Origin: Bacteroidota bacterium
GTDB taxonomy: Bacteria > Bacteroidota > Bacteroidia > Chitinophagales > Chitinophagaceae
NCBI GenBank assembly: GCA_029560415.1
Contig: JAKQKY010000393.1
Span: 1-64,000 of the forward strand
Reading direction: 5' to 3'
DNA length: 64,000 nt
Shown here: positions 2,670 through 8,658 of the stretch, in pieces
Layout: each line of letters begins with the position of its first letter
Numbering within the stretch: the first letter of the stretch is position 1
Made by a program: the position numbers and the translations under genes
The notes under the pieces: generated by a model
The model's input: the letters and a program-made list of their open reading frames with translations, nothing else
Databases searched by the model: none
What the model was told of the DNA's origin: nothing

Positions 2670-4103
2670 TCAATACTTCGTCAACTCCGGCTTCACCTCA
2701 TCAATATAACCCAGGATGCCACCTTTTAAATTGTATAAATTTTCGAATCCGAATTTTTCTTCCAGTTCCCGGATGGCTTTGGCACTTCGGCCACCCATTT
2801 TACAATGAATGACAACCCTGGTATCGCGACTGATGTTGGGCGCATATGCGGCAACGGTAGCCAGTGGTACCAGCTCGGCACCGATATTTACAATATCGTA
2901 TTCATGTGGTTCTCGTACGTCAATGATCTGAAATGCGTCTCCCTTTACCTGCCAGTCGTATAATTCTTTTGCCGAAATTTCTTTGATTGGTTTCTCTACT
3001 GCTTTCATGCCGCAGAACTGTTCGTAATCGATCAGCGTTTTAATTGTTGGGTTTTCACCATTGAGTGGATTGGCCGGATTGCGCCTTATATTAAAAGTGC
3101 GTGTTTCAAAACTGAGTGCATCAAAAGTGAAAAATCTTCCGCTGAGTGGTTCACCAACACCTGTGATCACTTTGATCACTTCAAGTGCCTGCAGGCTGCC
3201 GATGATGCCTGGCAACACGCCCAATACGCCTCCTTCGGCACAACTGGGTACAAGGCCAGGCGGCGGTGGAGTGGGATACAGGTCACGGTAATTTGGTCCA
3301 GGTTCACCCGCTGCATTTGTGTAATTAAATACTGATACCTGTCCTTCAAACTGGAAGATGGAAGCATAAACATTTGGTTTATTCAGCAACACCGACGCAT
3401 CATTCACCAGGTAACGGGTTGGAAAATTATCGGTGCCATCTGCTACAACATCATACTCCTTTATGATGTCAAGTGCATTTTGGGAATTGAGTTGTGTATT
3501 GTAAATATTTACCTGGATATGGGGGTTGAGTGACAGGAGTCTTTTTCGGGCCGCTGCTACTTTTGGCTGGCCTATTTCATCTACCCCGAACAATACCTGC
3601 CGATGCAGGTTGCTGTCTTCCACTACGTCAAAATCTACAATGCCAAGGGTACCAATGCCGGCTGCTGCAAGGTACAGGAGAACCGGGCTTCCGAGCCCAC
3701 CCGAACCGATTACCAGCACTTTAGCGGCTTTTAATTTCTGTTGGGCCTCTTTGCCAAATCCGGGTATGATGATATGCCGGTTATACCGTGCCAGTTCTTC
3801 TTTTGAAAATTCTACATTATGATGATCTCCGCTTCCACCTGCGATGGCTGGTACAATGCTTACCAGGGTATCATTGCTGAGCGTTGTATTTTCCTGCTGC
3901 AGGTTGCGGATATCATCGTCACCAACAAAGATATTTATGAACGAACGGATGTTGCCTGTTTCATCCTGCAGGTGTTTTTTCAGTTCAGGAAAATTGAGGG
4001 AGAGATCATTCACCAGTTCTTTCACAGTAGTTGCGTTTACACTAACCCGTGAGGCGTTGTTGGTGAATTTCCTGAGTGGAGTAGGGATGATTACAGTTGC
4101 CAT
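2670..4103 (-). CDS. Fusion protein: N-terminal CysO/MoaD-like ubiquitin-like domain + ThiF/MoeB E1-like adenylyltransferase + C-terminal rhodanese
   Basis: UBL: MATVIIPTPLRKFTNN...FINIFVGDDDIR...VSIVPAIAGG (GG at aa 89-90). E1: VLVIGSGGLGSPVLLYLAAAGIG, DGTDNFPTRYLVND, SCAEGGVLGVLPGIIGSLQALEVIK. Rhodanese: IIDVREPHEYD...VVIHCKMGGRS. Confidence 0.92.
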   Translation of the reverse strand: MATVIIPTPLRKFTNNASRVSVNATTVKELVNDLSLNFPELKKHLQDETGNIRSFINIFVGDDDIRNLQQENTTLSNDTLVSIVPAIAGGSGDHHNVEFSKEELARYNRHIIIPGFGKEAQQKLKAAKVLVIGSGGLGSPVLLYLAAAGIGTLGIVDFDVVEDSNLHRQVLFGVDEIGQPKVAAARKRLLSLNPHIQVNIYNTQLNSQNALDIIKEYDVVADGTDNFPTRYLVNDASVLLNKPNVYASIFQFEGQVSVFNYTNAAGEPGPNYRDLYPTPPPPGLVPSCAEGGVLGVLPGIIGSLQALEVIKVITGVGEPLSGRFFTFDALSFETRTFNIRRNPANPLNGENPTIKTLIDYEQFCGMKAVEKPIKEISAKELYDWQVKGDAFQIIDVREPHEYDIVNIGAELVPLATVAAYAPNISRDTRVVIHCKMGGRSAKAIRELEEKFGFENLYNLKGGILGYIDEVKPELTKY

Positions 4104-4104
4104 G

Positions 4105-4545
4105 TCATATTTTTTTTATGTGAACGGATTGTACAATATTTTCTTCCTCAAATTGATGTTCGTCATTCAAACGCCAGGACCGGGTAATCTCGAAACGTCC
4201 ATCCATCACCGACAGGATCAGGTAGGAAAAGTAAGGCTGGGCTGCAAGCCGGTCGTGTTCAGAAGGAATGGCCGGGTGATTTGGATGAGAATGATATACA
4301 CCCAATAACAGCAGGTTTCTTTCTTCAGCGAATCTTTCTGCTTTCATATAATCCGCGGATGTAATTTCAAATCGCCTTCGCTTATCGCCAGGCTTAGCAT
4401 TGTCTACAACCTGCATGCCAAGTATTAAGCGGTTTGTGCCAGATTCTTCGCCGAATACAAATCCACAACATTCATCCGGGAATGATTTTTCTGCATCTGC
4501 AATCATGTTTGCAAGGGCGTTGGGTTCAATTTGAAGGGCCATCAA
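4105..4545 (-). CDS. JAMM/MPN (Mov34, M67) metallopeptidase, Mec+-like
   Basis: DECCGFVFGEE and VYHSHPNHPAIPSEHD (E...HxH...SxxD JAMM motif). Confidence 0.9.
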   Translation of the reverse strand: MMALQIEPNALANMIADAEKSFPDECCGFVFGEESGTNRLILGMQVVDNAKPGDKRRRFEITSADYMKAERFAEERNLLLLGVYHSHPNHPAIPSEHDRLAAQPYFSYLILSVMDGRFEITRSWRLNDEHQFEEENIVQSVHIKKI

Positions 4546-5477
4546 AATAGTCTTGAAATGATGTCGGAATATTTATCAGAATTATCAGGCATCACGGTTA
4601 CTACTATTCCGCTTTTTAATGAATTTGCAATGCGAATGGCGCCTGCAATGTTCGCTGCAGATGATGGACTCACCAACAAACCCTCCTGTTGGTAGATCGC
4701 TACCAGTGTTTCAAAGGCTTCTTCTGTACTTACTTCAGCCGTTTCATCGGCCAGTACATCATCATAAATAGCAGGTACCATGGCTGTTTCCATGTGCTTC
4801 CATCCCTCCAATGCATGCATGGCCGAATCGGGTTGAAGGGAAATCAATTTTATATTTGGATTGTACTCTTTAAGTCTTCTGCCGGTGCCTACAAAAGTTC
4901 CACTGGTACCAAGTCCCGCCACAAAATGGGTAATGCCCGGGATAGCGTGATATATTTCTACAGCCGTTGTATGATAATGGGCTTTCCAGTTATTATCATT
5001 TTTATATTGATCGGCATAAAAATATTTATCCGGGTATTGTTCGGCCAGTTCACGGGCAACCTGTTGTGCGCCATCGGTGCCTTCGAAACGGGAAGTATAA
5101 ATGATCTCGGCACCCAATGCCTTGAGGATCTCTTTTCTTTCTGATGATGCATTTTCCGGCAGGCATAAGGTAACGGGTATGCCTAACTCTTTTCCCAGGG
5201 CTGCATAGGATATGCCGGTATTGCCGCTGGTAGCATCGAGCAGGGTCTTGTGTTCGTTGAGCCAGCCAAATTCAATGGCAGAGCGGAATATATAATAGGC
5301 TGCCCGCGTTTTTACACTGCCACCCATTTGCTGCCATTCTTTTTTTGCAAAAAGCATCACGCCTTTTTGCGGAACCATCCTGGAGAAATGGTGTAAGGGT
5401 GTATTCCCGAAATGCCGGTGTAATTTTTTGATCCTGTTGAGCAGGACTTCGCTTACAAATATTTCATCGGTTACCAT
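4542..5477 (-). CDS. cysM: PLP-dependent cysteine synthase, CysM family
   Basis: GNTPL, GGSVKTRAAYY (PLP Lys), DATSGNTGISYAALG, GLGTSGTFVGTGRRLKE; 4-nt overlap with the JAMM gene. Confidence 0.88.
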   Translation of the reverse strand: MVTDEIFVSEVLLNRIKKLHRHFGNTPLHHFSRMVPQKGVMLFAKKEWQQMGGSVKTRAAYYIFRSAIEFGWLNEHKTLLDATSGNTGISYAALGKELGIPVTLCLPENASSERKEILKALGAEIIYTSRFEGTDGAQQVARELAEQYPDKYFYADQYKNDNNWKAHYHTTAVEIYHAIPGITHFVAGLGTSGTFVGTGRRLKEYNPNIKLISLQPDSAMHALEGWKHMETAMVPAIYDDVLADETAEVSTEEAFETLVAIYQQEGLLVSPSSAANIAGAIRIANSLKSGIVVTVMPDNSDKYSDIISRLF

Positions 5478-5490
5478 ACGTGTACAAATT

Positions 5491-5518
5491 AAAAAAGCTC
5501 CACGGGCGGTGGAGCTTT
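5491..5518 (-). terminator. Intrinsic terminator hairpin immediately upstream of cysM
   Basis: Minus strand AAAGCTCCAC-CGCCC-GTGGAGCTTTTTT: perfect 10-bp stem, 5-nt loop, T6 tract; only 13 nt upstream of the cysM start. Confidence 0.75.
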
Positions 5519-5538
5519 ATATGAAATAGAAATTAAGT

Positions 5539-5634
5539 CTATATCTTAAGGCTGTTCTTCCACCAACATAACCAGTTCCTTTGTTGAATACAACAAGCAG
5601 GCTGATTAATAATATTTTTAGGTTGATTATGCAT
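5539..5634 (-). CDS. Candidate Cys-rich leader peptide MHNQPKNIINQPACCIQQRNWLCWWKNSLKI
   Basis: Short ATG-TAG ORF (31 aa, 3 Cys including a CC pair) between hddA and cysM, same strand, followed 20 nt later by a terminator hairpin. Confidence 0.3.
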   Translation of the reverse strand: MHNQPKNIINQPACCIQQRNWLCWWKNSLKI

Positions 5635-5753: not shown

Positions 5754-6776
5754 TTAGGCTGTCCAACTGGTGAGTCCATACTTAATAAAGGAGTACTTTT
5801 TCACTTCACCGCCAAAGGATAATAAGGCTTTTTTAACGGCATAATTGCTGTTCCCCGGGCAATAGAAGATCATGAAACCTCCACCGCCGGCGCCGCTGAT
5901 CTTGCCCCCGGTAGCACCTGCCGCCTTGGCAGCATCATATATTTCTTCGATGCTGCTATTGCTGATATTGTCGGCCATAAGGCGTTTCTGTTGAAATCCA
6001 AAATCAAGGATCTCTCCGAACTCATGTAGCTTACCCATAAGCAGGGCCTCTTTCATCATATGGGCCTGCTCTTTCAACTGGTGCATAGCATCGATGCTTT
6101 TACTGTTTTTATTATTAACGTTCTTAACCTGTTCTTTGATGATGCTGGCGCTTTCACGGGAGGTTGAAGTAAAATACAGTACCAGGTTGTTCTCCAGTTC
6201 GTGCATGTATTGAGGCCTGATGCGTAATGGGTTCACGATCACTTTATCATCTTTCATAAATTCCATGTAATTCACCCCGCCAAAAGTGGCTGCATATTGA
6301 TCCTGTCGACCGCCGGCCAAACCGAGTTCATTGCGTTCGATCTCGTAAGCCAGGTGGGCAATGTCGTAATCGCCCAGGGGCAGTTTTAGCATTTCTACAA
6401 AGGCCCCAAGGATAGCTACCATTAAGGTTGATGATGTGCCGAGTCCCGATCCAGCTGGTGCATCTACAAAAGTGGATAAACGAAAACCGGTTTTGGGAAG
6501 ACCATATTGTTTATGGATGCGGTTATATACTCCTTTGAGCAGATCGAGTGTTCCATCAATAGGAAGTTGAGGTGCCCAATTAAATTTTTGTTGTTCGTTG
6601 CGATCGAGTGCTTCTACAATAATGGCCATTTCATTGATCGGTTCTATGCTGGCATAAGCCGATAACGAGATGGTTGCATTGAGGATGGCGCCGCCATAAA
6701 GATCGCAGTACGGACTCACATCTGTACCACCACCGGCGAGGCCTATCCGAAGTGGGGCTTTGCTTCTGTATATCAT
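5754..6776 (-). CDS. hddA: GHMP kinase, D-glycero-alpha-D-manno-heptose-7-phosphate kinase
   Basis: SKAPLRIGLAGGGTDVSPYCDLYGGAILNATI, DAPAGSGLGTSSTLMVAIL, KISGAGGGGFMIFYCP. Confidence 0.85.
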   Translation of the reverse strand: MIYRSKAPLRIGLAGGGTDVSPYCDLYGGAILNATISLSAYASIEPINEMAIIVEALDRNEQQKFNWAPQLPIDGTLDLLKGVYNRIHKQYGLPKTGFRLSTFVDAPAGSGLGTSSTLMVAILGAFVEMLKLPLGDYDIAHLAYEIERNELGLAGGRQDQYAATFGGVNYMEFMKDDKVIVNPLRIRPQYMHELENNLVLYFTSTSRESASIIKEQVKNVNNKNSKSIDAMHQLKEQAHMMKEALLMGKLHEFGEILDFGFQQKRLMADNISNSSIEEIYDAAKAAGATGGKISGAGGGGFMIFYCPGNSNYAVKKALLSFGGEVKKYSFIKYGLTSWTA

Positions 6777-6905: not shown

Positions 6906-8060
6906 TCATTTCTTTACTACTGCAGCTAATTGAAGGATTTCCTTCAGCAGTATTTCCCAGCTGTATTTTTTCTTTTCTTCCTGCAAGCCGGGAATGAAAG
7001 TACTGCTGCCCATAGAAAAATATTTTTCAATGGCTTCGGCAATGGCAGGCGCATTAGGTTCGCAAACGATTCCGGCCTTTCCATTGGGAACCAGGGCTGG
7101 CAGACCGCCGACATTGGTTACAATCATGGGTATCTCGAAATGATAGGCCAGCGGTGTTACGCCACTTTGGGTGGCATTGCGGTAAGGTTGTATCACTACA
7201 TCTGCTGCACAGAGATAATATTTTACTTCACTGTCGGCAATGAATTCAGTATGCAGGAAAAGATTTTTTTCAATACCCAGTTGTTTGATCTGTTCATCAA
7301 AGGGTTTACGGTCTTCGTAAAATTCGCCGGCGATCAATAGTTTGATCTGCTGAGTTGCAGTTTTTTTCTGTAATAGTTGCATGGCGTCGAGGAGCATGTC
7401 TAATCCTTTATACTTCCTGATAAAACCAAAGAACAATGCGATGGGCTGATCGGCGGGTAATTTGAGATGCGCCCTTGCGGTTGACTGATTGATCTTTTCA
7501 CCAAAATTATCATAGAGTGGGTGGGCTATATGCGAGGCGGGTTTTGTAGTGGTAAAAGTGCGAAGGTCTGCCAGTACTTTATCGCTCATGGTAATAAATG
7601 CATCAATGGGTTTGATGAAATATTTTGTGAATGCATGATCGCCGGCCCGTTTTTCATGAGGGATGATGTTGTCGGCAATGCAGATGATCTTGGTATGATT
7701 ATTTTTCTTTACGATGCGTAGGATTGTTCCTAAGCATGGGCCCATGAAAGGTAACCAGTAGCGAACGATGATGATATCGGGCTTTTGTTTTTTTAAACGG
7801 TTGCCGATCCTGATCCAGTTGAGCGGGTTGACTGCATTTATCACAACTTGTATGTTGAGGTTTGCAGGCGCCGGTTCGGATGAATATTGTGTGGTGCCTG
7901 GGAATAGGAAACCGGGGTATTGTAACGAGAAGGTGTAGATGCCGACGTTGTGGCCTTGTTGTTGGGCTTCACGGGCGAGTCTTTCATTGAATGATGCGAG
8001 GCCTCCGCGTAATGGGTGTGCCGGGCCGAGGATGATGATATTTTTATTTCCTGGTTGCAT
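6906..8060 (-). CDS. Glycosyltransferase, GT4-like (GT-B fold)
   Basis: ILGPAHPLRGGLASFNERLAREAQQQGHNV; ALFFGFIRKYKGLDMLLDAMQLL; VIQPYRNATQSGVTPLAYHFEIPMIVTNVGGL. Confidence 0.85.
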   Translation of the reverse strand: MQPGNKNIIILGPAHPLRGGLASFNERLAREAQQQGHNVGIYTFSLQYPGFLFPGTTQYSSEPAPANLNIQVVINAVNPLNWIRIGNRLKKQKPDIIIVRYWLPFMGPCLGTILRIVKKNNHTKIICIADNIIPHEKRAGDHAFTKYFIKPIDAFITMSDKVLADLRTFTTTKPASHIAHPLYDNFGEKINQSTARAHLKLPADQPIALFFGFIRKYKGLDMLLDAMQLLQKKTATQQIKLLIAGEFYEDRKPFDEQIKQLGIEKNLFLHTEFIADSEVKYYLCAADVVIQPYRNATQSGVTPLAYHFEIPMIVTNVGGLPALVPNGKAGIVCEPNAPAIAEAIEKYFSMGSSTFIPGLQEEKKKYSWEILLKEILQLAAVVKK

Positions 8061-8061
8061 A

Positions 8062-8222
8062 CACGGATAATGATTGATACAAGGATGACGCGGATATTGA
8101 TAGATTCGCGGATGACGCAGATAACGCGGATGACAAGGATATTGATAGATTCACGGATGACTTGGATAAAGATTGAAGCACGGATGACGCGGATGACGGG
8201 GATGACACGGATGACACGGATT
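8062..8222. repeat. Degenerate CGGATGACGCGGAT / GATATTGATAGATTC repeat array (left arm of GxxExxY element)
   Basis: Repeated ggatgacgcggatattgatagattcgcggatgacgc...; about 9-bp ggatgacac periodicity at 8180-8222. Confidence 0.85.
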
Positions 8223-8277
8223 TTGGTGACGTGTAAAGGGTATTAACGGGTGTAAATTTATTTGTTGAGAGGTTCAA

Positions 8278-8658
8278 TTATTTTTGGTTGTTGGTTAATA
8301 CTTTTCTTTTAAAAGTAGGTTTTTCGCCAAAATGTAGCAGAAGTCCTACTTCATATTGAGTGGCTTTTAAATAATTTACTAACTGATATTCGTGTTGTGG
8401 GAGGATGCTGCCTTTCCCTGCTTTTATTTCAACGATCACTTCATCGTTTACCACGATATCGGAAAAATAAATGCCTACTTCGATGCCTTCGTATAATACA
8501 TGTACCCGTTTCTGTTGAAGGCAACTCACATGATTCTTCCTTAGTTCAACGATCATGGCATTTTCATATACTTTTTCCATGAAGCCATAACCAAGTGTAT
8601 TATAAACTTTATAAAAACTTTGAATAATGAACTCGGTCGTTTCTGATAGCAGCAACAT
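8278..8658 (-). CDS. GxxExxY protein (PD-(D/E)XK-like small protein)
   Basis: NTLGYGFMEKVYENAM contains GFMEKVY (GxxExxY); DIVVNDEVIVEIKAG fits a PD-(D/E)XK core. Confidence 0.88.
   Translation of the reverse strand: MLLLSETTEFIIQSFYKVYNTLGYGFMEKVYENAMIVELRKNHVSCLQQKRVHVLYEGIEVGIYFSDIVVNDEVIVEIKAGKGSILPQHEYQLVNYLKATQYEVGLLLHFGEKPTFKRKVLTNNQK

Follow-up and report, generated by a model that had tools for sequence, protein, structure and literature searches.

A carrier-protein pathway to cysteine is known from Mycobacterium tuberculosis, where its components are CysO, MoeZR, CysM and the JAMM protein Mec+. In that organism CysO is thiocarboxylated by MoeZR, and MoeZ-type enzymes are without the CXXC motifs of MoeB (PMC3227635). 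A related gene set is the class 4c operon of Iyer et al. 2006, which consists of a separate ThiS/MoaD gene, an E1-rhodanese, a JAB protein and a cysteine synthase; the same source contains the suggestion that JAB enzymes may free fused Ub-like domains (PMC1779556). In Streptomyces platensis, carriers with a capped GG are encoded beside a JAMM gene, and loss of the JAMM gene abolishes the thioacid products attributed to these carriers; the QbsE/QbsD and PtmS2/PtmS1 pairs likewise involve residues past the GG that a JAMM must remove (PMC6006322). Linear fusions of a carrier to a partner protein that are cut after GG have also been described. The function of M. tuberculosis MoaX, a MoaD-MoaE fusion, requires a cut between Gly82 and Ser83 (PMC4326299), and a Deinococcus JAMM cuts MoaD-MoaE (PMC8832034). 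Finally, the Iyer et al. account includes Campylobacter-type UBL-ThiF fusions, in which the Ub-like domain is N-terminal to the E1 and which are found in thiamine operons alongside a ThiS encoded separately (PMC1779556).

The window analyzed here, a 64,000-nucleotide stretch of the genome of a Bacteroidota bacterium, shares with the M. tuberculosis pathway a CysO-like carrier, a MoeZ-type E1-rhodanese, CysM and a JAMM. As read from the genes alone, it differs in that all parts lie in one operon (Table 1) and in that the carrier forms the N-terminal portion of the E1 chain and has an internal GG. The operon is thus a variant of the known CysO/MoeZ/CysM/Mec+ system, the new element being the joining of the carrier to its activating E1. 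The gene set is that of class 4c, for which the available part of the source lists a separate carrier and does not mention a fusion to the E1-rhodanese (PMC1779556). As proposed here for the window, QbsE and PtmS2 need a JAMM to remove the residues after GG, but their caps are 1-2 residues long, whereas the "cap" in the window is a whole E1. The MoaX junction, GG followed by Ser, is the same as in the window; the fusion partner in MoaX and MoaD-MoaE is, however, MoaE, a sulfur user, rather than an activating E1 made of ThiF and rhodanese. The Campylobacter-type proteins have the same domain order, but the genome studied here has no second CysO-like carrier and the operon no thiamine context. 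A literature search, largely outside subscription papers, found no account of a carrier joined to its own E1-rhodanese and no test of this pathway in Bacteroidota.

Table 1. Features of the fusion operon and its leader region (window coordinates)
Feature	Coordinates	Strand	Basis or remark
Leader peptide ORF MHNQPKNIINQPACCIQQRNWLCWWKNSLKI	5539..5634	(-)	tandem Cys codons 5595-5590
Intrinsic terminator hairpin, 16 nt before cysM	5494..5518	(-)	5' arm TCCACC (5513-5508)
cysM-type PLP enzyme, 311 aa	4542..5477	(-)	Pfam PALP 4.4e-64
JAMM/Prok-JAB metalloprotease	4105..4542	(-)	Prok-JAB 6e-23; ATG start 4542, TTG 4545 possible
Fusion ORF, 477 aa	2670-4103	(-)	CysO-like carrier, MoeZ-type E1 and rhodanese
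CysO-like carrier domain, residues 1-90, terminal PAIAGG	3834..4103	(-)	Pfam ThiS, residues 4-90 (E 2.3e-8)
Linker SGDHHNVEFSKEELA, GG to E1	3789..3833	(-)	without in-frame start codon; predicted JAMM cut Gly90/Ser91
MoeZ-type E1 (ThiF) domain, without MoeB CXXC motifs	3075..3788	(-)	Pfam ThiF, residues 107-343 (1.8e-78); GPNYRDLYP replaces CXXC-bearing segment
C-terminal rhodanese, CKMGGRS active loop	2673..2975	(-)	Pfam Rhodanese, residues 377-467 (8.9e-11)

The Pfam domains and the same-strand neighbors bear out the proposal of the first-pass annotation that carrier, E1 and rhodanese form one polypeptide in an operon with JAMM and CysM genes, both of which lie directly upstream. When the carrier-family profile was compared with solved chains, the top match was M. 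tuberculosis CysO (3dwg_C, 6.1e-17). The Gly89-Gly90 codons (3839-3834) lie inside the fusion ORF, and the chain runs on as SGDHHNVEFSKEELARYNRH; there is no stop, no restart and hence no free C-terminal GG. The same annotation had seen no start codon for a separate E1, and this is confirmed for the window: no in-frame ATG, GTG or TTG occurs 3' of the GG before residue 129, which is already within the nucleotide-binding domain of the E1, and an internal translation start for this E1 is thereby ruled out. A few relatives have a TTG, GTG or ATG within the linker, and in these a separate E1 start is conceivable. Cys434 of the rhodanese loop is kept in the window and is invariant among the fused relatives. 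A structure model of the fusion (mean pLDDT 75.7, from 9 sequences) was too weak for placing the carrier on the E1, with low confidence at residues 85-93, the GG-linker region.

The JAMM has an intact metal site (E plus HSHPx7SxxD) and is the sole Prok-JAB protein in its genome; the solved chain nearest to its profile is 2kcq, a bacterial Mov34/MPN protein. For CysM, the best NCBIfam match is cysM, at 287.8 bits, below the equivalog cut-off of 394.2; the nearest solved structures are of E. coli CysM, and M. tuberculosis CysM was matched as well. Of the gene boundaries first put forward, the single nucleotide between the JAMM stop (4107-4105) and the fusion ATG (4103) stands, but the 4-nt overlap of CysM and JAMM presupposes the TTG at 4545. 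The more likely JAMM start is the ATG at 4542-4540, which shares a single nucleotide with the CysM stop. The operon is flanked on the same strand by sugar genes that resemble a heptose pathway (1008-2323 and 5754-6776; nucleotidyltransferase, SIS-type isomerase, GHMP-type kinase). Directly downstream of it is a tandem repeat array (2376-2666) that is rich in GTTTAAG and has units of about 76 nt and of 8-18 nt. Elsewhere in the window, a Ser-rich low-complexity ORF (8044-8658) adjoins a GxxExxY-like protein of 126 aa.

Most Bacteroidota that have this operon show the order cysM, JAMM, carrier and E1-rhodanese; a separate gene of about 90 codons encodes the carrier, which closes with PAIAGG. A search for the fused architecture, as the first-pass annotation had proposed, found the carrier-E1 fusion in 17 of the 83 operons compared in the tree set. 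Two cultured isolates, Taishania pollutisoli and Flavitalea sp. BT771, have it, and the fused and separate states change at least 8 times on the tree (7-10 over 1000 bootstraps), the direction of gain or loss being unreadable. Given this count, the isolates and a minimum of 7-8 changes, the fusion is real and recurrent, and its presence in independent genomes is far beyond chance. The JAMM metal-site residues are intact in all fused operons checked. Carriers with other fusion partners were also seen. In a Saprospiraceae genome (L074:4501-5412) a 1-Cys-peroxiredoxin-like protein takes the place of the E1 as the fusion partner, a JAMM lying upstream and a separate E1 downstream; in Sumerlaeota (L107:4501-5022) the carrier continues into a C-terminal segment resembling a NIL domain and is followed by JAMM and E1. 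An Endomicrobia fusion of carrier and E1 (L112:4507-5553) has CXXC motifs and no rhodanese, and a JAMM lies elsewhere in that genome (L189), among apparent sulfate-assimilation genes.

The fused carrier is under strong purifying selection. Pairwise dN/dS is 0.02-0.11 for the fused carrier, similar to the 0.03-0.06 for the E1-rhodanese (computable pairs), and both the GG and PAIAGG are invariant across all aligned fused proteins; the GG is invariant among the relatives in general. Linker dN, by comparison, is usually about two to six times carrier dN. From the GG to the conserved RYxRH motif there are 9-45 residues, with no shared sequence except a frequent Ser after the GG, a position that Ile, Ala or Leu can also occupy in fused forms. 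A variable linker next to an invariant GG is more in keeping with a free-form connector destined for cleavage than with a tether of fixed geometry.

Residues beyond the GG together with a JAMM, the combination known from QbsE and PtmS2, are present in the window, and separate carriers are also usually capped, with 1-12 aa beyond the GG (for example L, SH, KQ, IVF, YA or SR). Carrier and JAMM co-occur closely: among 399 genomes of the order Chitinophagales, 70 have both, 1 has the carrier only, 2 have the JAMM only and 326 have neither. In the lone carrier-only genome the carrier is uncapped, and its contig starts within a repeat array a short way upstream; the missing JAMM may reflect an assembly gap. 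When 101 distinct carriers were sorted, 85 were capped or fused with a JAMM, 1 was capped without one, 5 were uncapped with a JAMM and 10 uncapped without. At loci with no JAMM beside the carrier, many of them from other phyla, a JAMM (E at or below 1e-12) was found elsewhere in the genome for 12 of 13 capped or fused carriers and for 0 of 10 uncapped ones (Fisher p 1e-5), a comparison with two borderline cases, a partial JAMM match near a contig start (L078) and a match of 9.5e-12 in the genome of an uncapped carrier (L080). A tree-aware pair test of cap against JAMM was not significant, having only 2-4 supported independent pairs, nearly all of them consistent with the association. The JAMM is also needed for freeing cysteine from the carrier, and co-occurrence alone is therefore no proof of a role in maturation.

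The region upstream of cysM (5494-5634) is a candidate cysteine attenuator of a kind that is widespread among relatives. Its terminator arm TCCACC can pair alternatively with GGTGGA (5564-5559), but no more than two Cys codons stand side by side in the window leader, and this antiterminator pairing taken alone is not significant (p 0.06). Among 73 related leaders, an ORF with two or more Cys codons side by side occurs in 52, against a mean of 9 in shuffled sequences, and runs of four or more occur in 41, against 0 in shuffles; the longest run is of eight (L059). A candidate antiterminator pairing at p<=0.05 was found in 23 of the 47 leaders with both a Cys run and a terminator, a count that serves as a guide only, near-identical relatives being included. 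An Rfam search of the leader region matched no family. Cys-codon leaders have been described before, in Actinobacteria and for cysS of Rhodobacterales (PMC1262725, PMC8632094). Since most operons of this type open with a Cys-codon leader and a terminator, as would be expected of genes for making cysteine, the leaders support cysteine as the probable product.

Besides the fusion, the genome contains a single ThiS-family gene; it encodes a MoaD with a terminal GG and lies beside moaE and a moaC-like gene. This MoaD falls outside the carrier profile, and no second CysO-like carrier was found in the genome with that profile. The first-pass annotation had named a stand-alone CysO or MoaD serving CysM as an observation that would tell against its reading; with only the moa-operon MoaD present, a separate carrier for CysM is ruled out. 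The fusion is, however, the only MoeB/MoeZ-type E1 in the genome, the other ThiF gene being TcdA-like by sequence. By analogy with MoeZR, the fusion E1 probably serves MoaD and molybdenum cofactor synthesis too, and to call the cysteine system "self-contained" was too strong. Neither a PAPS-reductase family gene nor a CysE scoring above the family cut-off was found in the genome, which suggests that the sulfur comes from something other than sulfate and that CysM may use O-phosphoserine.

From these observations we consider it likely that the operon makes cysteine by way of a carrier protein, in the manner of CysO/MoeZ/CysM/Mec+, and that this carrier is made as the N-terminal pro-domain of its own E1 and is freed by the JAMM. 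Every catalytic step of this scheme, the cleavage included, is one that we infer. The JAMM would cut between Gly90 and Ser91 to yield a free carrier that ends in GG and an E1-rhodanese that begins near SGDHHNVEF. The E1 would then adenylate the freed carrier, and the rhodanese persulfide would convert it to the thiocarboxylate, which CysM would couple to activated serine. The same JAMM would hydrolyze the resulting carrier-Cys, releasing cysteine and regenerating the carrier, and a shortage of Cys-tRNA would raise transcription of the operon through the leader peptide and terminator. A further idea, which we think unlikely on balance, is that the pro-domain acts as a zymogen control: the carrier tail would occupy or mask the E1, and the JAMM cut would activate the E1 and fix a 1:1 supply of carrier and E1. 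The repeated origin of the fusion would then reflect a JAMM that, being needed already for cysteine release, removed the need for a stop codon between carrier and E1.

A permanently tethered carrier, offered at first as an alternative, would work in cis without cleavage, and the synthesis of carrier and E1 at 1:1 in one chain would suit it. In the chemistry of MoaD, ThiS and CysO, however, adenylation and thiocarboxylation require a free C-terminal carboxylate. The invariant GG, the purifying selection and linkers of such varied length and sequence also argue against a tether, and MoaX, the closest tested fusion, is inactive when uncut (PMC4326299); we regard this reading as highly improbable. 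It is also very improbable that the fused carrier is inert and that the E1-rhodanese acts only on other carriers. The GG-ended MoaD and the absence of any other MoeB/MoeZ-type E1 would give such an enzyme a use, but they leave unexplained the strong selection on fused carriers with their invariant GG and PAIAGG, the lack of a second CysO-like carrier, and the retention of JAMM, CysM and the Cys-codon leader.

Release of the carrier by something other than the JAMM, either a housekeeping protease or self-cleavage, is improbable in our estimate. The protease that cuts MoaX was left unidentified in the source paper (PMC4326299), which leaves room for other enzymes, but a JAMM is present in every genome with a checked fused carrier, and it is for JAMMs that the cutting of such fusions and caps has been demonstrated. 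Self-cleavage is unlikely: it depends on a Ser, Thr or Cys following the GG, and the residue at this position varies. An assembly error or a decaying gene might be suspected in an assembly of 515 contigs with an estimated contamination of 7.3%, yet the frame here is undamaged, and the same architecture occurs with intact frames in many independent genomes, the two isolates among them; an artefact has a negligible probability and can be ruled out. Recurrence, selection, the association of caps with JAMM and the Cys-codon leaders, all of them read from sequence, instead favor the original proposal of a CysO-type cysteine system with the JAMM as its likely maturation protease.

Within Bacteroidota, the Cys-codon leaders link this type of operon to cysteine. 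The association of caps with JAMM may provide a rule that forecasts, from sequence alone, which sulfur carriers require maturation, and the recurrent fusions are natural experiments on the tolerance of JAMM proteases for residues after the GG. Ubiquitin precursors are made fused to other proteins and then cut free, and ubiquitin activation is thought to have descended from sulfur-transfer systems. The fusion operon would be a bacterial parallel to these precursors, lying within the sulfur-transfer systems themselves, in which a deubiquitinase-like enzyme would free the carrier.
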